Source: a virus. Taken from it: 28,965 nt of DNA. Shown here one piece after another: positions 1 through 26,283 of this stretch (positions are counted from its first letter, which is position 1; every line of letters begins with the position of its first letter). The DNA lies in the IMG/VR virus record IMGVR_UViG_3300014838_000064, positions 1 to 28,965 of that record. One strand, given 5' to 3'. Made by a program: the position numbers and the translations under genes. The notes below the pieces were generated by a model. It was not told the DNA's origin and made no database searches. It saw nothing but the letters and a program-made list of their open reading frames with translations.

Positions 1-808
1 CAAAAAGTTCGGTATCAAAAGTGAGTAAGTTAAACCCTGTGCCTGAAGTAGTCACAGCCCCATTTCTATAAACACTAAACTTATAAGGGTTAAATGGTAT
101 TGCTCCTGCTAAGGCTCCATGAGGGTTACGAGTCTTAGAATAGGAGTTAAGAGTTATGGCTGAGTTGGCAACTGTAGCACCTGCTAGACCTGCGATGGTG
201 AGAACGGTAGCCGCTACTGCGGTAACTACGAAGTATTTAACGGTAGAAGATTGAGTAAGCTGGAGATAGTCGCCTATGTCATATTTGGTAGTAGCGTTAG
301 TAGGAACGGTGATTGTTGAGGCAGAGGCGTAAGTCCAAGTTTCGGCGGCACTTACCCACCCCGTAATAACTCCAGTAGGTGAAAGGTTCTTAATTGTAGC
401 GGAAGTAGTAACATTAAGAGTATCGGTGGTCATTCCGCCAGTGTTTGAGATAGCTTCGTGAGTACCATTCTGGTTGTGCTCCATTAAGATACCGGCAGTA
501 ATCATGTCTAGGGTAGTAGCTGAAACGTAGTCAATAACTGTCGCTCCAGAGGTGTGAGTCTGGTTAGTACCATAAGTCCACTCTACATTGGTAACAGTCG
601 CTCCTGAGACTATTCCGGTAAAGACTTGCTTAAGGGTAGGGGTAGCAGCATCTACTGTAAAAACTACAACGTCACCGTTAGAGTAGTTGGTCATTCCACT
701 TATACCAACTGTAGTGGCTCCGGGGGCAATAGTACCACTAAGAGTCATGGCTACAGTGTTTTCAAAAACTGTTGGGAAGAACTCGGTTACTGAATCAATG
801 TTTGGCAT
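1..808 (-). CDS. Tail fibre or receptor-binding protein, C-terminus cut by window edge
   Basis: The frame is open from an ATG at 808 to the window edge (269 codons visible), so the C-terminus is missing. The protein starts MPNIDSVTEFFPTVFENTV, is rich in Thr, Ser, Val and Gly, and looks all-beta. A His-Asn-Gln-Asn-Gly segment follows at about residue 110. The last visible stretch (SVYRNGAV, then TFDTELF) resembles the start of the C1q/TNF-like head domain that caps many phage fibres; this is a resemblance I recognise, not a search result. An AAGGA box lies about 11 nt before the ATG. As the last visible gene of the leftward virion operon, directly after the tail genes, a host-contacting role is likely but not proven. 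Confidence 0.6.
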   Translation of the reverse strand, partial: MPNIDSVTEFFPTVFENTVAMTLSGTIAPGATTVGISGMTNYSNGDVVVFTVDAATPTLKQVFTGIVSGATVTNVEWTYGTNQTHTSGATVIDYVSATTLDMITAGILMEHNQNGTHEAISNTGGMTTDTLNVTTSATIKNLSPTGVITGWVSAAETWTYASASTITVPTNATTKYDIGDYLQLTQSSTVKYFVVTAVAATVLTIAGLAGATVANSAITLNSYSKTRNPHGALAGAIPFNPYKFSVYRNGAVTTSGTGFNLLTFDTELF

Positions 809-838
809 TTTTATTTTATCCTTTTTCTTTATTCTACA

Positions 839-3681: not shown

Positions 3682-4026
3682 TTATTGTGTTACAGGCTCT
3701 GGTTGTATCTGGGCCAAAGGGATCATTGGCTTCATTGGTTGTCGAGCCAGGGCTACACGTGGGCCCAGGAAAGCCTGGAGAGGAACGTGCAAACCTACGG
3801 CTGGATGATAGGCTATGTTCTGAGCAATAACTTGGGGGTCTATACCATGAGGAATCATCTGATTAGCACCACCGCCTCCTGAAAGGCCCATATTGCCAGC
3901 TACAGGGGCTGGTGAAACTCTTGGAGATGGCGAAGCAGTAACTCCACCAAAAGCTGAGGTTGGGTTACCTTGTAAACCCCCTGAACCTGTTACTGGTATC
4001 ATACTTTGTATATCTGTTGTTTTCAT
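3682..4026 (-). CDS. Small Pro/Gly-rich virion-operon protein, unknown
   Basis: 114 aa. Preceded by an AAGGA box. The protein is rich in Pro, Gly, Ala and Met, with few charged residues and no transmembrane pattern. Residues about 60-90 (MIPHGIDPQVIAQNIAYHP) may form a short helix. I recognise no family. Its place between the giant 1741-aa protein and the adaptor gene suggests a minor virion or assembly factor. A possible extended -10 (TGC then TAAAAT) precedes it in the gap after the 1741-aa gene. Confidence 0.5.
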   Translation of the reverse strand: MKTTDIQSMIPVTGSGGLQGNPTSAFGGVTASPSPRVSPAPVAGNMGLSGGGGANQMIPHGIDPQVIAQNIAYHPAVGLHVPLQAFLGPRVALARQPMKPMIPLAQIQPEPVTQ

Positions 4027-4059
4027 TTTGTTTTAATCCTTTTCTTTATTTTAGCACTA

Positions 4060-7000
4060 CTATTGACTTATTGGTACACTTTTGATCTTCAATTTCCCCC
4101 CCTGCGGTCTTTTAGTCCGAATCATTTTAGGCTTAGGTAGAAAGATTTTACTCTTGTAAGCTTTGCGGATATAGGCCTTCTTACCAGCATACTTAACGGC
4201 GGCCACGGCGTGAGATCTCTCCATATCATCTAGTAATTTAGTTACCTCTGAACTAGAGCCTCCTCCTGAAGAACTATTAGCATAGGCGGCGGCTGGGTTT
4301 ACTGAATAGTCGGTTGTACCATCAGATGCAACTTCGGGGTTAATGTCATATTGGCCAAGATCATAGATACTCTTAAGGTTAGCCTGAGAAAGGTTATCAC
4401 CTACAAACTTGGCTTGGCCGGCAGTTAAGCTCAGATTGTACTCATCAACACTAGCCATGTAGTTCTGCATATCATTGAAGGCTGTAGGGTTAGCAGTTCT
4501 AAGAGAAGTACGCTCAGTCTTAGAGGCGTTAGTATAGTCGGTCATCCAGCTCTCTAGAGCTGCTGGAGCAGTAGGATAATTCTTAAGTAGGGGCTCATTC
4601 AGTCCAGCTCTTCGGGCATTTTCGTAGTTGAACATAGCATTGAAGGCTTGTTCTACCTCTGGGTTTTGGGCTAAGAACTGGGCCCGTTGAGTCGAGGTGT
4701 CACTACTCATACCGTAGTACTGGTTAACTAGATTCTGGGTAGCCTGAGGGATCACTGGGTAGGGTACTCCACCAGGGGTAATTTGAGGGGCTGTTGAGCC
4801 CTTAAGCCCTCCTGAGGACTGGTACAGCTTGTTCATGGCTGTAGAATAGGTAGCCACGTTATTCTCGTAGGTGTTTATGAGCTCCTTATTATTGGCGTAA
4901 ATTACGGCCGCTGTATCATTAGCATCGGTGCCTGGGTCTGAAGACTTAAGCTGCTCGTAGCGAATAAGGGTCTGTTGGTCCTTGGCTGATAAATCGTAGA
5001 GGGGGTTAGAGGGCTCTCCGTGAGCTTTAGCGAAGGCATTTTGTTCATTCAAGGCCTTTAAAACGGCTGGGTTATCGGCCATAGTGGTCCACTTGCTAAT
5101 CTCATAGTTAGAGTTATTATAAATGGCGGCTACCTGGGCCTTAGATAGATTCTGATTCCAACTAGGCTCTACTTGGTCTAGAGCTCCTTGGTTATCTGCT
5201 GAAAGTCCCTCTCGAACCAGAGTCCTGTTGTTCATTATCTGCATAACTGGGGCTGTAGGGTTGGCTGAAACACGGCCTACACCGCTTATGTCTATGGCGG
5301 CTTCTCCTGGACTGATTGCTGACTGGCCACCAGAAGCTATCTTTACGAACTTATTGTTAGCTAGGGCTGGTATATTCTCTAGGGCTCTAGCTCCTGGCTG
5401 GAAAGGAATAGGGGCTATGGCGTTAAGGGCCTGCCCAAGATCTTCACCGGCAGTTAAGCCGTGGCCGTGCATTGGGGCACCGTAGAAATCAGCATTGTTA
5501 ACCTCTTCTTTAACGAAGGCTGCAAAGGCTGATAGGTTACCGCTGGCCTCACTACTTAAGCCGGATAGTTTGTCGGGGTTGTTCTTGTTGAAGGCTGGAG
5601 CTACAGCTCTATATACCTTGTTGGTAACAGTGGCTAGAAGGTTAATCTGTTTGGGGGTACCTCCGGCAGTCTTCCAAGGAGTCTGGACCGTAGGGTTAAC
5701 TAGCTGAGTAGCTACAAACTTCAGTACCTGCTTAGGGTTATCCCCAATTTGGTGGTTAGAGATAGCCTGTAGAGTGCCGGGAGTAGCTAACATAGCTGCA
5801 CGGGTTGTTATCATCTGCCGGGCCATACGTCCCTCAATAGTACCCAAAGTACGGGGATCCAGAGCTGCCATCAAGGTTCTAAACTGACCCTCGTTATAGT
5901 CTACGGCTAGAATACCCCTAGCCGCCCATTTAAACTGAGTAGGAGTAAAGCCGTTCAAAAGACGATTAACCCCACCGAACATATTGTTTACACCCTTAGA
6001 GGCATCCATTAACTTGTCGAAGTCATCGGTGTTATTCATATCAAGACCCTTGGTAAACTTATCAAAAACGGCTAGCTTAGAGTAGACAATTTGACGTTCA
6101 AACAAGGCTGCATGAAGCTGTTTGAAGCCTGGGATCTTGTTTATGCCTGAGTCGAACTCGTCTCCAGCCCCTAGAGTAAGACCACTACCTAGAGCCTTCT
6201 GGAGAGTGCCATCTGACTCCCATTTATCCATGCTATCCAAGAAAGCGGTTGGGCTACCCCACGCTTGCATGGCCTTAGGGGCTGTTAGGGGATCTAGCCC
6301 CACATGGCTAAGTTCTATGTTAATGTTGTGAAAACCACTACCACTCAACTTAGCGTCTTTAGCGGCTTTGTTCATAATATCGTAGACCTTAGCGACTTTT
6401 CCACCAATGTTATCGCTATAGTTAGCCATAGCCTTGGAGTTTATTCGATCTGCAAGCTCTTTATTAGTGAAAACGTTGTTGAAGTCATGCAACGCTTGGT
6501 GAGCAGCTAACTTATCTCCACCATAACTGGCCGCATTGTCTCCAAACGCCTGTCTCAGGCCATATAGGAGGTTGTGCTGGGTGATATTAGTCTTAGCTGA
6601 GCCAATGTCCTTAGTAAGGTCTTCGTGGAAGTTGGCTGAAGTTCTAACACGCCCAGTGGTCTCTTCTAGATCGGCGTAGTTATTAAAGTGTCTAGCCTCA
6701 GCATAGCTGTGATCCTGGCCTTCTTTAGGAGCTGAGGGTTCAAACTCTGAGCCATCTGGGTTAGCACTAGAAAAACCGGCTCCATAATTCTGTCTATACG
6801 GAGTAATATCGTAGGGATCGGAGATCCTTCGGGCCTCATGGATATAGTCTTGAACGTGAGATGCTCTATTGGCATAGTCTAGGAAGGCTGCTCTATCGGT
6901 CTCTGGTAGGTTTTCAGCCACAGTCTCTGGTGAATGGTCTCTTAGACTATCGGCTGCTTCTTGAGCTGCCGGAGTTAGTTTTCCCCATAGTCTATCAGCT

Positions 7001-23020: not shown

Positions 23021-23028
23021 ACGTATGA

Positions 23029-23034
23029 TATAAT
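23029..23034 (+). promoter_or_regulatory. Extended -10 promoter of tRNA leader 1
   Basis: TGA followed by TATAAT. The predicted start (about 23041) falls at the ATG of the 21-codon leader. The -35 region is weak. Confidence 0.65.
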
Positions 23035-23041
23035 GGATTTT

Positions 23042-23107
23042 ATGAAAACTATATGCCAACCCACCAATAAGGATGCCCAGCCAGAAGCAAAGGCGGATTT
23101 GACGTAG
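23042..23107 (+). CDS. Leader peptide 1 of the tRNA operon (attenuator candidate)
   Basis: 21 codons, stop TAG. After Met the peptide contains Lys x3, Thr x3, Ala x3, Gln x2, Pro x2, Asp x2, Ile, Cys, Asn, Glu and a single Leu; it has no Phe, Tyr or Ser. All these amino acids except Leu are served by tRNAs of the 20-gene block that follows. It uses ATA, both Gln codons and both Lys codons, which match anticodons UAU, UUG/CUG and UUU/CUU in that block. Codons 17-19 (AAGGCGG, 23090-23096) can pair with the 5' arm of the terminator at 23130-23162, giving an antiterminator. The mRNA appears leaderless. A regulatory peptide is inferred. Confidence 0.65.
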   Translation: MKTICQPTNKDAQPEAKADLT

Positions 23108-23129: not shown

Positions 23130-23162
23130 AAACCGCCTTCCCTTCACCGGAGGCGGTTTTTT
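23130..23162 (+). terminator. Terminator/attenuator in front of tRNA block 1
   Basis: Stem of 9-11 bp (AAACCGCCT with AGGCGGTTT) and six T, ending 5 nt before the first tRNA. Its 5' arm CCGCCTT (23133-23139) is also fully complementary to AAGGCGG in leader 1, so the two structures exclude each other. Confidence 0.85.
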
Positions 23163-23167
23163 AATAT

Positions 23168-23241
23168 AGGTAATTAGTACAATAGCAGTACGATGGATTC
23201 CAAACCCATAAACGAGGGAGCATTACCTTCATTACCTGCCA
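23168..23241 (+). tRNA. trnW: tRNA-Trp (anticodon CCA), non-canonical elbow
   Basis: Acceptor AGGTAAT/ATTACCT is perfect, discriminator G73 as in bacterial Trp tRNA. D-loop AATAGCA has A18 G19, and T-loop is AGCATTA (A54, G55, C56, U58) instead of TTCGANN. The 54-58 pair is inverted from U-A to A-U. One A31-C39 mismatch in the anticodon stem. First gene of block 1. Confidence 0.88.
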
Positions 23242-23246
23242 GATAA

Positions 23247-23322
23247 CGGAATGTCGCCTAGTGGTATGGCACACGGTTTGGGGCCGTGAACAATTTGGGT
23301 CCGATTCCCAACTTTCCGACCA
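23247..23322 (+). tRNA. trnP: tRNA-Pro (anticodon UGG)
   Basis: Loop TTTGGGG gives anticodon TGG with G37 as usual for Pro, and C1-G72. D-loop has GG. T-loop is TCCGATT, so residue 55 is C instead of U. One T-T mismatch at 6-67. Only Pro tRNA of the window; must read all four CCN codons if used alone. Confidence 0.9.
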
Positions 23323-23397
23323 GTATCCATGGCTTAATGGCTGAGCAGCGGTCTTTTAAACCGCCCTATGATGGTTCGATTCCATCTGGATGCACCA
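23323..23397 (+). tRNA. trnK: tRNA-Lys (anticodon UUU)
   Basis: Starts directly after the CCA of tRNA-Pro. Full cloverleaf, loop CTTTTAA, D-loop with GG, canonical T-loop TTCGATT. Partner of the CUU isoacceptor 71 nt downstream, which has the altered elbow. Confidence 0.93.
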
Positions 23398-23398
23398 A

Positions 23399-23467
23399 GC
23401 TCTAGACACGGAGTTAACAAGGTGTTCTAAGCCTTACACCTGGGTTCGATCCCCAGCTAGAGTACCA
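23399..23467 (+). tRNA. trnR: tRNA-Arg (anticodon UCU) with shortened D-arm
   Basis: 69 nt. Acceptor GCTCTAG/CTAGAGT (G1-U72), anticodon stem AAGGT/GCCTT with loop GTTCTAA, canonical T-arm CTGGG-TTCGATC. Only 13 nt lie between acceptor and anticodon stem instead of about 19, and no normal D-stem forms. Confidence 0.8.
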
Positions 23468-23468
23468 A

Positions 23469-23543
23469 GGGTTTGTAGCTTAACAGTGAAGCACCTGCCT
23501 CTTAAGTAGGATATCGTGGGGGCAGCACCCACCAAACTCACCA
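23469..23543 (+). tRNA. trnK: tRNA-Lys (anticodon CUU), non-canonical elbow
   Basis: Complete cloverleaf: acceptor GGGTTTG/CAAACTC, D-stem GCTT/AAGC, anticodon loop CTCTTAA. D-loop AACAGTG gives A18 G19, and T-loop GGCAGCA gives G54, G55, C56, G58 on a perfect GTGGG/CCCAC stem. Confidence 0.88.
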
Positions 23544-23617
23544 TGTGGATTAGTTTAAAAGAAGAACAGTGCTCTGATACAGCATAAACAAAGGGGCAGT
23601 ACCTTTATCCACAACCA
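23544..23617 (+). tRNA. trnI: tRNA-Ile (anticodon GAU), non-canonical elbow
   Basis: Abuts the previous CCA. Perfect acceptor TGTGGAT/ATCCACA, anticodon loop CTGATAC, D-loop AAAAGAA (A18 G19), T-loop GGCAGTA on AAAGG/CCTTT. Confidence 0.87.
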
Positions 23618-23618
23618 A

Positions 23619-23692
23619 TCGGCTATCGTTCAATAGCAGGACATCAAGCTTATATCTTGACAAACTTGGGGCAGAACCAAGTAGCCGGACCA
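23619..23692 (+). tRNA. trnI: tRNA-Ile (anticodon UAU), non-canonical elbow
   Basis: Loop CTTATAT gives anticodon UAU, which reads AUA directly. Most bacteria use a CAU tRNA with lysidine instead. D-loop AATAGCA (A18 G19), T-loop GGCAGAA on CTTGG/CCAAG, acceptor TCGGCTA/TAGCCGG with a T1-G72 wobble. Confidence 0.87.
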
Positions 23693-23766
23693 GCTCTGTT
23701 AGTTTAATAGTAGAACATTGGTGTTACATACCAAATACGAGCGTGCGATTCGTTCACAGAGTACCA
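23693..23766 (+). tRNA. trnV: tRNA-Val (anticodon UAC), hybrid elbow
   Basis: Abuts tRNA-Ile. Loop GTTACAT, D-loop AATAGTA (A18 G19), T-loop TGCGATT: U54 and A58 are normal but residue 55 is G. This shows the 18-55 change without loss of the 54-58 pair. Confidence 0.88.
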
Positions 23767-23767
23767 A

Positions 23768-23842
23768 AGCCTTATAGCTCAACAGACAGAGTACCGGTCT
23801 TCGAAACCGATGATGAGGGTGCAATTCCTTCTAGGGCTACCA
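23768..23842 (+). tRNA. trnR: tRNA-Arg (anticodon UCG), hybrid elbow
   Basis: Loop CTTCGAA. UCG replaces the usual bacterial ACG, so no inosine is needed. D-loop AACAGACA (A18 G19), T-loop TGCAATT (G55). A C27-A43 mismatch. Followed by a 105-nt gap holding a small ORF. Confidence 0.88.
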
Positions 23843-23862
23843 ATTTAACAAAAAGGGGTATC

Positions 23863-23967
23863 ATGCCAAGAGATGATCGCTGTATCGGATGTGGTTGCTG
23901 GAGAGTATCAGATATGTCAGTAATCTGTATCCACAAGTGTTTAATGTGTTGGCGGAAGCCGAAGTAG
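23863..23967 (+). CDS. 34-aa Cys-rich mini-protein inside the tRNA block, possible zinc binder
   Basis: 34 aa from an ATG preceded by AAGGGG, stop TAG. It has CxxCxC at residues 7-12 and CxHxxCxxC at 22-29, six Cys and one His in all, enough for one or two zinc sites. It fills most of the only long spacer of block 1 (other spacers are 0-5 nt), and its last 20 nt overlap tRNA-His. So mRNA translation and tRNA maturation would compete. Possible tRNA- or RNA-binding partner; function unknown. It could also be a chance ORF in a spacer, but the Cys pattern argues against this. Confidence 0.45.
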   Translation: MPRDDRCIGCGCWRVSDMSVICIHKCLMCWRKPK

Positions 23968-24025
23968 TCGAGGCCCTAGCCTGTGAAGCTAGACTAAGCG
24001 GGTGCAAGTCCCGTCTGCCACCCCA
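23948..24025 (+). tRNA. trnH: tRNA-His (anticodon GUG), hybrid elbow
   Basis: Loop CTGTGAA. A 5' extra G (-1) faces C73, the histidine identity pair, and the 3' end is CCCCA. Mismatch T1-C72. D-loop contains A18 G19 (GTAGT), T-loop TGCAAGT (G55). The 5' end overlaps the 34-aa ORF. Confidence 0.87.
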
Positions 24026-24029
24026 AGAT

Positions 24030-24103
24030 GATCCTGAAGTGTTACGATAGCACGTTACCTTGTCAGGGTAAGAGCACGGGTTTGACTCCCGTTAGGATCG
24101 CCA
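24030..24103 (+). tRNA. trnD: tRNA-Asp (anticodon GUC) with swapped 19-56 pair
   Basis: Loop TTGTCAG, discriminator G73 as in Asp. D-loop TACGATA places G18 A19, and T-loop TTTGACT has U55 U56. The universal G19-C56 pair is thus replaced by A19-U56 while 18-55 stays G-U. Confidence 0.87.
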
Positions 24104-24108
24104 AGTAA

Positions 24109-24182
24109 TTCTTTGTAGTATAGCGGTAATACACCTGGCTGTTAACCAGAAGTCCGTGGTTCGAACCCACGCAAAGGAGCCA
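24109..24182 (+). tRNA. trnN: tRNA-Asn (anticodon GUU)
   Basis: Loop CTGTTAA, discriminator G73, D-loop with GG, canonical T-loop TTCGAAC on CGTGG/CCACG. C27-A43 mismatch. Confidence 0.93.
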
Positions 24183-24187
24183 TATAA

Positions 24188-24262
24188 GGATCGTTGGCTG
24201 AGTGGTAAAAGCTACCGCCTGCAAAACGGTGTACATCGGTTCGACTCCGATACGATCCTCCA
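24188..24262 (+). tRNA. trnC: tRNA-Cys (anticodon GCA)
   Basis: Loop CTGCAAA, discriminator U73 (the cysteine identity base), D-loop with GG, canonical T-loop TTCGACT. C31-A39 mismatch. Confidence 0.93.
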
Positions 24263-24266
24263 AAAA

Positions 24267-24340
24267 GCCGGATTAGCTCAATAGTAGAGTTACAGTTTTG
24301 TAAACTGAAGACCTGGGGGCAGTACCTAGATCCGGAGCCA
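24267..24340 (+). tRNA. trnT: tRNA-Thr (anticodon UGU), non-canonical elbow
   Basis: Loop TTTGTAA. D-stem GCTC/GAGT with loop AATAGTA (A18 G19), T-loop GGCAGTA on CTGGG/CCTAG. Acceptor pairs except G1-A72. Only Thr tRNA of the window. Confidence 0.86.
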
Positions 24341-24416
24341 GTGGGTGTAGTGTTAATGGCTAACACGCCTTCCTTCCAAGTAGGAGCTCAGAGTTCGAAT
24401 CTCTGTACCCGCACCA
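24341..24416 (+). tRNA. trnG: tRNA-Gly (anticodon UCC)
   Basis: Abuts tRNA-Thr. Loop CTTCCAA, D-loop with GG, canonical T-loop TTCGAAT on CAGAG/CTCTG. T30-T40 mismatch. Only Gly tRNA; none would read UGA. Confidence 0.92.
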
Positions 24417-24420
24417 TTTA

Positions 24421-24494
24421 GGGCTTTTAGGTCAATAGTAGACTCATTGCTTTGCAAGCAGTATACGACGGGGCAGAACCGTCAAGGTCCACCA
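24421..24494 (+). tRNA. trnA: tRNA-Ala (anticodon UGC), non-canonical elbow
   Basis: Loop TTTGCAA. Acceptor GGGCTTT/AAGGTCC contains G3-U70, the hallmark identity pair for alanine, so charging should be intact. D-loop AATAGTA (A18 G19), T-loop GGCAGAA on GACGG/CCGTC. Confidence 0.9.
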
Positions 24495-24497
24495 TTT

Positions 24498-24574
24498 CGA
24501 GTGTTAGGCAAGTGGCTTAAGCCGTTAGTTTTTCACACTAAAGATCATGGGTTCGAATCCCATACACTTGACCA
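24498..24574 (+). tRNA. trnE: tRNA-Glu (anticodon UUC)
   Basis: Loop TTTTCAC with C38 typical of Glu. D-loop with GG, canonical T-loop TTCGAAT on ATGGG/CCCAT. Discriminator is A where bacterial Glu tRNA usually has G. Confidence 0.9.
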
Positions 24575-24578
24575 TTTA

Positions 24579-24653
24579 CAGCGTAGGGGCAGAAAGCTAA
24601 GCCGCTACCCTCTCAAGGTAGAATACTGGGAGCATTACCCAGTACGCTGACCA
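24579..24653 (+). tRNA. trnE: tRNA-Glu (anticodon CUC), non-canonical elbow
   Basis: Loop CTCTCAA, perfect acceptor CAGCGTA/TACGCTG and anticodon stem. T-loop AGCATTA on CTGGG/CCCAG, the same as in tRNA-Trp. D-loop has AAAGC where A18 G19 can be placed. Residue 8 is G instead of U. Confidence 0.84.
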
Positions 24654-24654
24654 A

Positions 24655-24728
24655 TTGCGTGTCCTCTAAAGGTAGGAGAGAGGCCTTTGAAACCTTTAAT
24701 CTTGGTTCGAATCCAAGCGTGCAAACCA
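24655..24728 (+). tRNA. trnQ: tRNA-Gln (anticodon UUG)
   Basis: Loop CTTTGAA, U1-A72 as in bacterial Gln, D-loop with GG, canonical T-loop TTCGAAT on CTTGG/CCAAG. C31-A39 mismatch; discriminator A rather than G. Confidence 0.92.
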
Positions 24729-24731
24729 TAA

Positions 24732-24806
24732 TTGGGAGTCGTCTAACCGGTAGGACAGTACCCTCTGAAGGTATAGATCTAGGTTCGAAGCCTAGCACCC
24801 AAACCA
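24732..24806 (+). tRNA. trnQ: tRNA-Gln (anticodon CUG)
   Basis: Loop CTCTGAA, U1-A72, D-loop with GG, T-loop TTCGAAG on CTAGG/CCTAG. A6-A67 mismatch. Last gene of block 1; no terminator follows before the next promoter. Confidence 0.92.
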
Positions 24807-24815
24807 TTATGACTA

Positions 24816-24844
24816 TTGACTAATCACTAAGCATTTGTTATACT
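24816..24844 (+). promoter_or_regulatory. Strong promoter of the structured RNA region
   Basis: -35 TTGACT (24816-24821), 17-nt spacer ending in TGT, -10 TATACT (24839-24844). Best plus-strand promoter of the window. Expected start about 24851. Confidence 0.8.
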
Positions 24845-24850
24845 CCTTAT

Positions 24851-25256
24851 GTATAGTTCTTTGAAATCTGTCCGTAGTCACCTAATAAGTTGCTACACAC
24901 GGCTAAGGTCATCAAATCGGATCGAAAGATCTACGGATGTCGGCATAATAATCAAAAGCTGGTGTCGAGTGCTTGAAAGAGCGAGGAGAAGTGCGAACCC
25001 TTGAACAAATACAATTTAAACTTGTAATGTTTGGTTGCGGGCCGCCATCTGACTATAAGTGCGGGCTGAAAGCTCGATCGACTTATAATCAGTTCGGCCC
25101 GCTGTCTTCAATGGCGAGTGTGGAGGGGTTTGTGATGTCAAATAACGATGGTTATTTACTGGTGCTTGCAAGCGAATCTGGGGAAACCTGGTGAAGCCTC
25201 TACAGGAGGAAGTGGTAGTCTGAGGACTTTGACCTATGGGCAGTTTTGGAGGAATT
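24851..25256 (+). ncRNA. Candidate large structured RNA between the tRNA blocks
   Basis: About 400 nt with a strong promoter and no convincing ORF. It is full of helices: TCCGTAG/CTACGGA (24871-24877 with 24931-24937), GCTT-GAAA-GAGC at 24971, TACAA/TTGTA at 25010-25026, a long rod formed by GCGGGCCG/CGGCCCGC (25037-25044, 25095-25102) and the 12-bp CTGACTATAAGT/ACTTATAATCAG with one mismatch, AAATAAC-GATG-GTTATTT at 25140, a GAAA-capped stem at 25178-25191 and AGTC-TGAG-GACT at 25217. Three hairpins end in GAAA, which supports the plus strand. Large ornate phage RNAs such as GOLLD and ROOL often lie beside tRNA genes; placement fits, but I cannot assign a family. It could also be a long leader of the 41-aa gene. 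Confidence 0.55.
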
Positions 25257-25382
25257 ATGTCAACATTTAAAGTATTACCATATAATAAACCAGCCGAATT
25301 AGAGAAACTACTTGCCGAAGGGTATATGGTTAATGGCGTATTCAGCCATACATCTAAAGCCATACTAATTTTAAAGAAATGA
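25257..25382 (+). CDS. 41-aa protein, unknown
   Basis: 41 aa, stop TGA, with a strong GGAGG (TGGAGGAATT) just before the ATG. Sequence begins MSTFKVLPYNKPAELEKLLA, then GYMVNGVFSHTSKAILILKK, a small beta-alpha-beta pattern that could be a nucleic-acid-binding mini-domain. The stop overlaps the ATG of the next ORF (ATGA), a clear sign of coupled translation and good evidence that both are real. It would be read from the promoter at 24816 through the structured RNA. Confidence 0.65.
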   Translation: MSTFKVLPYNKPAELEKLLAEGYMVNGVFSHTSKAILILKK

Positions 25383-25501
25383 CTAACTTTGACGGCCGGT
25401 TCAGTACAGTTATCCGTAAAAGTGTTAGAAAACTGTTTTTTAAAGAGAAAAATAAGGGCCAGTTAATAAATGACTTGCTTGAAAAGTATTATAAGGTATA
25501 A
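25379..25501 (+). CDS. 40-aa basic protein coupled to the 41-aa gene, unknown
   Basis: 40 aa, stop TAA. Its ATG overlaps the previous TGA. The sequence is basic in the middle (VIRKSVRKLFFKEKNKG) and ends in an amphipathic helix (QLINDLLEKYYKV). This resembles short regulators, but it is too short for a full ribbon-helix-helix fold. The stop codon lies within the -10 box of the tRNA-Met promoter. Possibly a small RNA-binding partner of the neighbouring 41-aa protein. Confidence 0.6.
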   Translation: MTNFDGRFSTVIRKSVRKLFFKEKNKGQLINDLLEKYYKV

Positions 25502-25502
25502 T
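25475..25502 (+). promoter_or_regulatory. Promoter of tRNA-Met and block 2
   Basis: TTGCTT (25475-25480), 16-nt spacer, TATAAT (25497-25502). The expected start is at the first base of tRNA-Met. Confidence 0.65.
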
Positions 25503-25509
25503 GGTTTTT

Positions 25510-25585
25510 AGCAGGTTACTAGTTCCGGTGAACTAGCTGGTCTCATAAGCCAAGTAGAGGAGTTCGACTCTCCTACCAGCCACCA
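25510..25585 (+). tRNA. tRNA with CAU anticodon (Met, initiator or Ile2)
   Basis: Loop CTCATAA gives CAU. D-arm is an unusually long perfect hairpin CTAGTTC-CGGT-GAACTAG; T-arm AGGAG-TTCGACT-CTCCT is canonical. Acceptor AGCAGGT/ACCAGCC has mismatches A1-C72 and A4-A69. An unpaired 1-72 is a hallmark of initiator tRNA, but the anticodon stem lacks three G-C pairs. Since a UAU Ile tRNA is present, Met is more likely than Ile2. Confidence 0.75.
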
Positions 25586-25603
25586 AATTAAAGGATTAAA
25601 CAG

Positions 25604-25663
25604 ATGAAATACTTACTATCGTTTTCAAGTTTGTATCTCTCCCAGTCAGGGGCTTCTGTTTAG
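25604..25663 (+). CDS. Leader peptide 2 of the tRNA operon (attenuator candidate)
   Basis: 19 codons, stop TAG, AAGGA 8 nt before the ATG. After Met-Lys the peptide reads YLLSFSSLYLSQSGASV: six Ser, four Leu, two Tyr, one Phe, that is 13 of 18 residues. The tRNAs downstream are Phe, Tyr, three Leu and two Ser, nothing else. Leader codons TTA, CTA and TTG are the exact complements of the three Leu anticodons UAA, UAG and CAA; TCA and AGT suit Ser UGA and GCU. Codons 15-18 (AGGGGCTTC, 25648-25656) pair with GAAGCCTCT (25691-25699), the 5' arm of the terminator. The design is that of an amino-acid operon attenuator. Confidence 0.72.
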   Translation: MKYLLSFSSLYLSQSGASV

Positions 25664-25691
25664 TGTAATCGAAAATCGTTCTTGCGAAAGG

Positions 25692-25719
25692 AAGCCTCTC
25701 CCAACCGAGAGGCTTTTTT
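25692..25719 (+). terminator. Terminator/attenuator in front of tRNA block 2
   Basis: Perfect 9-bp stem AAGCCTCTC/GAGAGGCTT, loop CCAACC, then six T. It ends 5 nt before tRNA-Phe. The 5' arm can pair over 9 bp (one G-U) with the end of leader 2 instead. Confidence 0.9.
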
Positions 25720-25723
25720 ATAT

Positions 25724-25798
25724 GTCTTCGTAGCTTAACGGTTTAAGCATCCGCCTGAAGAGCGGAGGATTGTGGTCCGACTCCACACGTTGACACCA
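25724..25798 (+). tRNA. trnF: tRNA-Phe (anticodon GAA)
   Basis: Loop CTGAAGA, D-loop with GG, T-loop TCCGACT (C55) on TGTGG/CCACA. Acceptor GTCTTCG/CGTTGAC has two T-T mismatches in the middle. First gene after attenuator 2. Confidence 0.87.
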
Positions 25799-25801
25799 TT
25801 A

Positions 25802-25872
25802 GCCGTGGCGTGCAGGGCACTCAACTGACTGTAAATCAGGAGACGAAGGTTCGATTCCTTCCCATTGCACCA
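25802..25872 (+). tRNA. trnY: tRNA-Tyr (anticodon GUA), short variable loop and small D-arm
   Basis: Loop CTGTAAA; canonical T-arm GAAGG-TTCGATT-CCTTC. The D-arm shrinks to GTGC-AGG-GCAC. The variable loop is only about 4 nt, although bacterial Tyr tRNAs have a long variable arm. One C3-T70 acceptor mismatch. Confidence 0.82.
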
Positions 25873-25949
25873 GCTCACATAGCCCAACTGGAAGAGGCAT
25901 AAGTTTCAAAAGCTTATTTGTGTAAGTTCAAATCTTACTGTGAGTACCA
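25873..25949 (+). tRNA. trnL: tRNA-Leu (anticodon CAA) without long variable arm
   Basis: Abuts tRNA-Tyr. Loop TTCAAAA, acceptor GCTCACA/TGTGAGT (G1-U72), D-loop with GG, T-loop TTCAAAT. Variable loop TTTGT has 5 nt; bacterial Leu tRNAs are class II with a long arm. Confidence 0.87.
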
Positions 25950-25950
25950 A

Positions 25951-26026
25951 GCTCTCCTATCCCAACGGTAGAGGAAGTGGTTTTAGAAACCATCAAGTGT
26001 CAGTTCGAATCTGACGGGGAGTACCA
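25951..26026 (+). tRNA. trnL: tRNA-Leu (anticodon UAG) without long variable arm
   Basis: Loop TTTAGAA, acceptor GCTCTCC/GGGGAGT (G1-U72), D-loop with GG, T-loop TTCGAAT on GTCAG/CTGAC. Variable loop CAAGT, 5 nt. Confidence 0.88.
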
Positions 26027-26102
26027 GCTCGATTAGCCCAGCGGCAGAGGCAAACGACTTAAGATCGTTAAAGGCTCAGTTCGAATCTGAGATCGAGTAC
26101 CA
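26027..26102 (+). tRNA. trnL: tRNA-Leu (anticodon UAA) without long variable arm
   Basis: Abuts the previous gene. Loop CTTAAGA, acceptor GCTCGAT/ATCGAGT (G1-U72), D-loop with GG, T-loop TTCGAAT on CTCAG/CTGAG. Variable loop AAAGG, 5 nt. Its acceptor and D-arm resemble the other two Leu genes, so they look like recent duplicates. Confidence 0.88.
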
Positions 26103-26105
26103 TAC

Positions 26106-26194
26106 GGAAGATAAAGCAGCTCCATGGAGGGGCGACTGGCCTTGAAAACCAGGCTACGGCAACGTACGGGGGTCGGTTCCTCTGTCTTCCGCCA
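26106..26194 (+). tRNA. trnS: tRNA-Ser (anticodon UGA), class II
   Basis: 89 nt. Acceptor GGAAGAT/GTCTTCC, G73, loop CTTGAAA. Long variable arm TACG-GCAA-CGTA with a GNRA loop. T-loop GTCGGTT is odd (G54 and G58, with U55 C56 kept). D-arm pairing is poor. Confidence 0.87.
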
Positions 26195-26195
26195 A

Positions 26196-26283
26196 GGTAG
26201 ATTAACTCTTTAGGAAAGGGGATCGCCCGCTAAGCGAATCGCAGGGTAAAATCTGTCAGTTTCGAGTACTGAGTCTACCGCCA
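26196..26283 (+). tRNA. trnS: tRNA-Ser (anticodon GCU), class II, C33
   Basis: 88 nt. Acceptor GGTAGAT/GTCTACC, G73, variable arm stem CAGG/TCTG, T-arm TCAGT-TTCGAGT-ACTGA. The anticodon loop is CCGCTAA, so residue 33 is C instead of the nearly universal U. Last gene of block 2. Confidence 0.86.

Follow-up and report, generated by a model that had tools for sequence, protein, structure and literature searches.

Predicted leader-peptide attenuators ahead of tRNA gene blocks in an uncultured tailed phage and two relatives

Introduction

Transcription attenuation by a translating ribosome is known from the amino-acid operons trp, his, leu, thr, ilvGMEDA and pheA, and has been described and modelled (PMC1183508). 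The loci considered here share with these operons a short leader ORF rich in codons that report on supply, an intrinsic terminator and, where the ORF ends, an antiterminator that excludes the terminator; several leaders also show a possible protector pairing between element 2 and the start of the ORF. The present loci differ in that the genes under control would be tRNA genes rather than genes for biosynthetic enzymes, the carrier is a virus, each leader covers between 4 and 10 amino acids and as many as 12 tRNA species, and the mRNA is apparently leaderless.

Leader-peptide attenuation also acts on aminoacyl-tRNA synthetase genes, as in E. coli pheST with its leader pheM. In bacilli, histidine leaders precede hisS and hisZ (PMC2965389). 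These systems resemble the present one in that their target belongs to the charged-tRNA supply machinery and their leader contains the cognate codon; they respond to one amino acid and yield a protein, whereas here tRNA is the product and the blocks are multi-specific. T-box riboswitches likewise sense tRNA charging and control termination of translation-related genes, as is proposed here. They do so by direct RNA-RNA contact and have no leader peptide, whereas the present loci have a leader ORF and no Rfam T-box match.

The reason why phages carry tRNA genes has been debated for decades, and control of phage tRNA expression is little discussed in the literature searched. Phage-encoded tRNA arrays are clusters that have been proposed to replace tRNAs destroyed by host defences (e.g. 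PMC10264068, PMC11555353, PMC6409571). The genes described here are clustered in the same way; unlike those arrays, for which the literature searched mentions no leader attenuators, they are preceded by putative ones. A preliminary description of this DNA had proposed attenuation with tRNAs as the controlled product and knew of no viral tRNA operon with such logic. Openly licensed literature on phage tRNA, tRNA operons and leader peptides yielded no viral or cellular example either, an absence that is not proof. The class of mechanism is an established one, and the novelty lies in its target, in how many tRNAs are sampled and in the viral setting.

Results

A tRNA array shared by three viral genomes

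The window, the whole stretch of DNA analysed here, is a 28,965-nt fragment of an uncultured virus (IMG/VR record IMGVR_UViG_3300014838_000064, positions 1-28,965) that encodes a terminase and a major head protein. At its right end lie ~28 tRNA genes on the + strand (23168-26283; a few anticodons were read by eye), a dense cluster in a tailed-phage genome, as in known phage tRNA arrays. They span all 20 amino acids, Met being included only if a tRNA with anticodon CAU is a Met tRNA. A terminase search led to two contigs, L003 and L004, with the same array in the same gene order. Their array regions have diverged in sequence from that of the window, which makes the three-way comparison useful. 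DNA patterns from the middle leader (below), tRNA-Lys(CUU) and tRNA-Ser(UGA) had matches only in L003 and L004. Among ~80 terminase or head-protein relatives, many of them short fragments, arrays were found in the window, L003 and L004 alone; a downstream 145-aa ORF used as query returned no relatives, and genome-collection scans found no provirus or host.

A further contig, L002 (IMG/VR 3300033134_000009), has a 95% identical major head protein, yet its 36.7 kb hold no tRNA array, so the array may be quickly gained or lost. Many tRNAs of the three arrays (23168-24806 in the window) have non-canonical T loops (GGCAGNA, AGCATTA, TGCGATT and others, versus TTCRANY), often conserved per tRNA type across genomes, and ARAGORN misses many of the genes concerned.

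The Phe-Tyr-Leu-Ser block

The second block of the window comprises the following features, all on the + strand.

25510-25585, + strand: tRNA with anticodon CAU, seen in the sequence directly behind a -10-like TATAAT (25497-25502)
25590-25595, + strand: Shine-Dalgarno-like AAAGGA, seen in the sequence 8 nt upstream of the leader ATG
25604-25663, + strand: leader ORF of 19 codons, MKYLLSFSSLYLSQSGASV and stop, recognised by composition, codon match and conservation in L003 and L004
25647-25662, + strand: element 2 (antiterminator strand), 3′ end of the leader ORF, pairing with the terminator 5′ arm
25688-25719, + strand: intrinsic terminator (elements 3 and 4), -17.2 kcal/mol, ending 4 nt before tRNA-Phe
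25724-26283, + strand: putatively controlled block of seven tRNAs behind the terminator
25724-25798, + strand: tRNA-Phe(GAA)
~25802-25872, + strand: tRNA-Tyr(GUA), anticodon read from the sequence
25873-25949, + strand: tRNA-Leu(CAA)
25951-26026, + strand: tRNA-Leu(UAG)
26027-26102, + strand: tRNA-Leu(UAA)
26106-26194, + strand: tRNA-Ser(UGA)
26196-26283, + strand: tRNA-Ser(GCU), read from the sequence

The preliminary description had remarked that 13 of the 18 residues after Met in the 19-codon ORF are Leu, Ser, Tyr or Phe, and that the seven tRNAs behind the terminator serve exactly these four amino acids. Both statements are borne out by the sequence (one tRNA each for Phe and Tyr, three for Leu and two for Ser). 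Given a background of 0.21 for these residues in the virus group, the binomial probability of such a composition is 3.5e-6, and comparison with 20,000 in-frame windows of real viral proteins gives p = 5e-5. A cognate codon is present for each of the seven tRNA species. The Leu codons TTA, CTA and TTG fit the three Leu anticodons, as had been claimed, and one CTC is additionally present. The postulated pairing of the leader end with the terminator 5′ arm was likewise recovered: 25647-25662 pairs at -16.4 kcal/mol, against a dinucleotide-shuffle mean of -8.8 (p = 0.004). When the mutually exclusive structures were modelled, element 2 was left free only by a ribosome within the first ~12 codons.

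Comparison of leaders in related phages, which the preliminary description had suggested as a check, favours its proposal. In both relatives that have this tRNA block the leader is intact, similar in composition and different in sequence; the three peptides ahead of Phe-Tyr-Leu-Leu-Leu-Ser-Ser are MKYLLSFSSLYLSQSGASV (window), MKALFSLSSLYLSSLLEEAS (L003) and MKAFYSLSSLVLSDKGVAF (L004). In L003 and L004 this leader has its own mutually exclusive antiterminator and terminator. A CAU tRNA stands at the equivalent place in both, ahead of the leader of the last block; in the window, transcription from the TATAAT at 25497-25502 would continue into the Phe-Tyr-Leu-Ser leader.

L004 also has a short predicted RNA without an evident ORF between the CAU tRNA and the last leader (~6345-6470, minus strand); it comes with a TATAAT box and a terminator of its own.

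The first and middle blocks

The three genomes hold eight leaders: two in the window and three in each relative, L003 and L004 having three attenuated blocks. The first block of the window is organized as follows.

23026-23034, + strand: extended -10 promoter TGA-TATAAT, 7 nt upstream of the leader ATG; a leaderless mRNA is predicted
23042-23107, + strand: block 1 leader ORF, MKTICQPTNKDAQPEAKADLT and stop, with 19 of 20 residues within the block's set of 15 amino acids
23089-23103, + strand: element 2 of the block 1 attenuator, pairing with the terminator 5′ arm at -16.4 kcal/mol (shuffle p 0.002)
23130-23159, + strand: block 1 intrinsic terminator, a hairpin
23168 onward, + strand: first part of the tRNAs, Trp, Pro, Lys(UUU), Arg(UCU), Lys(CUU), Ile(GAU), Ile(UAU), Val and Arg(UCG), the Arg(UCU) anticodon being read from the sequence
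to 24806, + strand: tRNAs after a small Cys-rich ORF, His, Asp, Asn, Cys, Thr, Gly, Ala, Glu(UUC), Glu(CUC), Gln(UUG) and Gln(CUG)

The first-block leaders of the relatives are MITICPKPVNKRDTHIV (L003) and MFTRCTVKPINKRDIHVSLVSAA (L004). Intergenic gaps in the window block are 0-5 nt, apart from the surroundings of the Cys-rich ORF. In L003 and L004 a middle attenuator, with leaders MNYVTTQQEAGITH and MNYVTTQQAEGTIG, stands ahead of Thr-Gly-Ala-Glu-Glu-Gln-Gln, the third gene in L004 having anticodon GCA. This attenuator is absent from the window, where the Cys and Thr genes are 4 nt apart. Block 1 of the window corresponds to two blocks fused, and its single leader has residues of both: it contains Gln, Ala and Glu codons, which the block 1 leaders of the relatives lack in their sensing part. 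Because this block spans 15 amino acids, its leader is statistically weak when taken alone; it has a single Phe/Tyr/Leu/Ser residue.

The GCA gene of L004 (6919-6993, minus strand), third in the middle block, has a Cys anticodon yet the G3-U70 pair typical of tRNA-Ala, and occupies the position of tRNA-Ala(UGC) in the window and L003; the L004 array showed no UGC-anticodon loop. The small Cys-rich ORF inside the first block is present in two of the three genomes (window 23843-23948, beginning MPRDDRCIGCGCWRV; L003 ~3965-4070, minus strand, beginning MTKWEPRCPSCGCWRT).

Leader ends pair with the terminators

Between each leader ORF and the first gene of its block lies a terminator hairpin of -11 to -17 kcal/mol, as expected of an attenuator; that of block 1 in L003 has a poor U tract. 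The last codons of every leader, or its stop and the bases just after, can pair with the terminator 5′ arm. This pairing exceeded that of dinucleotide shuffles in seven of the eight (p 0.001-0.007; combined p 5e-11), the middle leader of L004 being the exception (p 0.30).

To model the ribosome position, bases covered at each codon were removed and the nascent RNA was folded up to the terminator loop. For each of the eight leaders, the model gave a nascent antiterminator with the A site at codon 2 to ~11-16 that was weakened or lost nearer the stop, least cleanly in the middle leader of L004. An antiterminator that excludes the terminator and is masked by a ribosome near the stop is therefore indicated in seven of eight leaders by the shuffles and in eight of eight by ribosome position. 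Cognate residues are concentrated within the predicted sensing zone (64/82, versus 17/37 after it; Fisher p = 6e-4; the count excludes the first leader of the window, whose set covers 15 amino acids). The model, with its sensing zone, accounts for the division between codons that fit the tRNAs and codons dictated by pairing.

The first codons pair with element 2 when most of the leaders are folded at full length, a possible protector (1:2) that would favour termination in an untranslated leader; this pairing is absent in the first leader of the window and weak in its second. At full-length equilibrium the terminator was favoured at nearly every ribosome position in L003_1, L004_1, L004_2 and L004_3, which means that a switch there would rely on the order of folding during transcription. 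This preference marks a limit to what the calculation shows and may be a weakness of the attenuation model. Equilibrium folding of the full leader was rejected as a sole test, as attenuators act during transcription.

Leader residues match the block that follows

In all eight cases the residues of a leader fit the tRNAs behind that leader and not those of other blocks. When residues were shuffled among the leaders of one genome, the observed match had p = 1e-5 (L003), 4e-5 (L004) and 3e-5 (window). Compared with in-frame windows of viral proteins, the three Phe/Tyr/Leu/Ser leaders lie at the extreme (p = 5e-5, 5e-5 and 2e-3), and so does the first leader of L003, with 14/16 residues in its block's set (p = 3e-4); the remaining leaders are individually modest by this measure.

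The match extends to codons. Cognate codons are present for 11/13, 6/7 and 7/7 tRNA species in the successive blocks of L003, for 12/13, 5/6 and 6/7 in L004, and for 12/20 and 7/7 in the window; the block 1 values of L003 and L004 have p = 5e-5 each against random in-frame windows. The block 1 leaders of these two contigs include codons for both Lys and both Ile isoacceptors, and that of L004 also for both Arg isoacceptors, while the middle leaders have CAG and CAA for the two Gln tRNAs. The tRNA-Trp that opens block 1 has its codon in none of the leaders. Residue order is scrambled between relatives and composition is kept (TTQQEAGITH versus TTQQAEGTIG), as would be expected if the codons, and not the peptide, matter. 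Because the leaders are homologous and come from three uncultured contigs, the eight are only partly independent.

A general sensor of slow translation would open the operon whenever a ribosome is slowed, be it by antibiotic, starvation or shut-off, with the tRNA match as a by-product. The folding model does respond to ribosome position rather than codon identity, and leaders with many different codons would react to many stresses. We nevertheless regard such a sensor as quite unlikely, since the leaders of one genome are specific to different blocks (residue-shuffle p 1e-5 to 4e-5) and the match reaches the level of isoacceptors, which a general sensor does not need.

Start signals and the case for leader translation

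An extended -10 box, defined as TGN plus at least 4/6 of TATAAT, sits 6-7 nt before the leader ATG in seven of the eight leaders; such boxes precede ~1% of ATGs in these sequences. Transcripts should consequently start at or next to the ATG, and the seven leaders are probably leaderless mRNAs. The eighth, that of window block 2, has no -10 box near its ATG; it follows the CAU tRNA and has AAAGGA 8 nt upstream instead. That the ORF persisted through a change in the type of start signal supports translation of the leader, and the leader ORFs are accordingly predicted to be translated. Each is a short ORF with cognate codons, and seven lie at a predicted transcript start, the arrangement expected of an attenuator leader.

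These features bear on T-box-like control, in which uncharged tRNA would bind the leader RNA directly and stabilise the antiterminator, the ORF being incidental. A terminator/antiterminator pair ahead of translation-related genes is the usual T-box layout. Searches of the window and its relatives gave no T-box or other Rfam match besides tRNAs, and T-box control, for which a conserved structure with a specifier loop would be expected, was rejected. The ORF is intact in all eight leaders, with its ATG right behind a promoter or Shine-Dalgarno-like motif, and the leaders carry codons for 5 to 12 tRNA species, more than a single specifier would account for; we consider this reading highly improbable. 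The least credible reading is that the terminators only insulate the tRNAs from upstream transcription and the ORFs are chance or functional micropeptides: small ORFs are common and other phages have terminators near tRNA genes, but here a start signal, ORF and terminator with tRNAs directly behind recur in every case, the composition and pairing tests reject chance, and a composition that is conserved in scrambled order speaks against a functional peptide.

No convincing leader came from a scan of eight tRNA-rich reference phages; this is a weak negative, as the scanner (ARAGORN with strict terminators) recovers only five of the eight known leaders.

Discussion

The anatomy of these leaders, its conservation, the match of residues to blocks, and the pairing with its position can be read directly from the three genomes. 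They make it very probable that each tRNA block is governed by a trp/his-type, ribosome-mediated transcription attenuator with tRNA as its output. In the proposed mechanism, RNA polymerase would begin at the leader and a ribosome would load at once on the mostly leaderless ORF, which lists codons for the tRNAs behind the terminator, roughly one codon per species. With the listed charged tRNAs plentiful, the ribosome would reach the last codons and cover element 2, the terminator would form, and the tRNAs would not be made. With a listed charged tRNA scarce, we infer that the ribosome would stall upstream, element 2 would pair with the terminator 5′ arm, and read-through would increase as polymerase enters the tRNA block. 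As new tRNAs would relieve the stall, each block would be a self-limiting supply of its own tRNAs. The virus thus appears to make a tRNA block only when the ribosome is short of those tRNAs. The idea that the tRNAs themselves are the controlled product is supported at the sequence level, in that leaders are conserved in relatives and leaders of other blocks match their own tRNAs.

Loss of tRNA is the more sensible signal, because extra tRNA helps against a missing tRNA and not against a missing amino acid. More speculatively, the usual trigger may be loss of host tRNA, through host shut-off or tRNA-cutting defences. Both such defences and phage tRNAs acting against them have been documented (PMC10264068, PMC11555353), and the leader attenuators may be linked to them. 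We think it likely that a virus with a complete tRNA set for 20 amino acids gauges its own translation in this way: the multi-codon leader of each operon would sample the encoded tRNAs and open that block alone on shortage, a feedback replacement of tRNAs, possibly directed against defence, and the first known attenuator to sense its own tRNA product.

If this is true, tRNA shortage is for the virus a regulated signal, answered by supplying tRNAs one block at a time as they are needed, and the tRNA-replacement hypothesis becomes directly testable. Leader-peptide attenuation, hitherto acting on enzymes and one to three amino acids, would then reach tRNA genes and ~ten amino acids, and the compact design could serve as a sensor of charged-tRNA species.

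Other sequences in the window and its relatives

A stretch of ~400 bases is conserved in the window (24853-25257), L003 (676-1071) and L004 (3978-4392), with 70% identity between window and L003; its orientation relative to the array is reversed in L003 and L004. It has no Rfam match at E up to 1 and is a candidate unknown non-coding RNA.

Two related phages, L101 (~745-830, plus strand) and L102 (~700-800, minus strand), contain sequence resembling a tRNA whose parts are rearranged: the T arm and 3′ acceptor strand precede the 5′ acceptor strand, D arm and anticodon arm, and the acceptor halves are complementary. These are possible circularly permuted tRNA genes.
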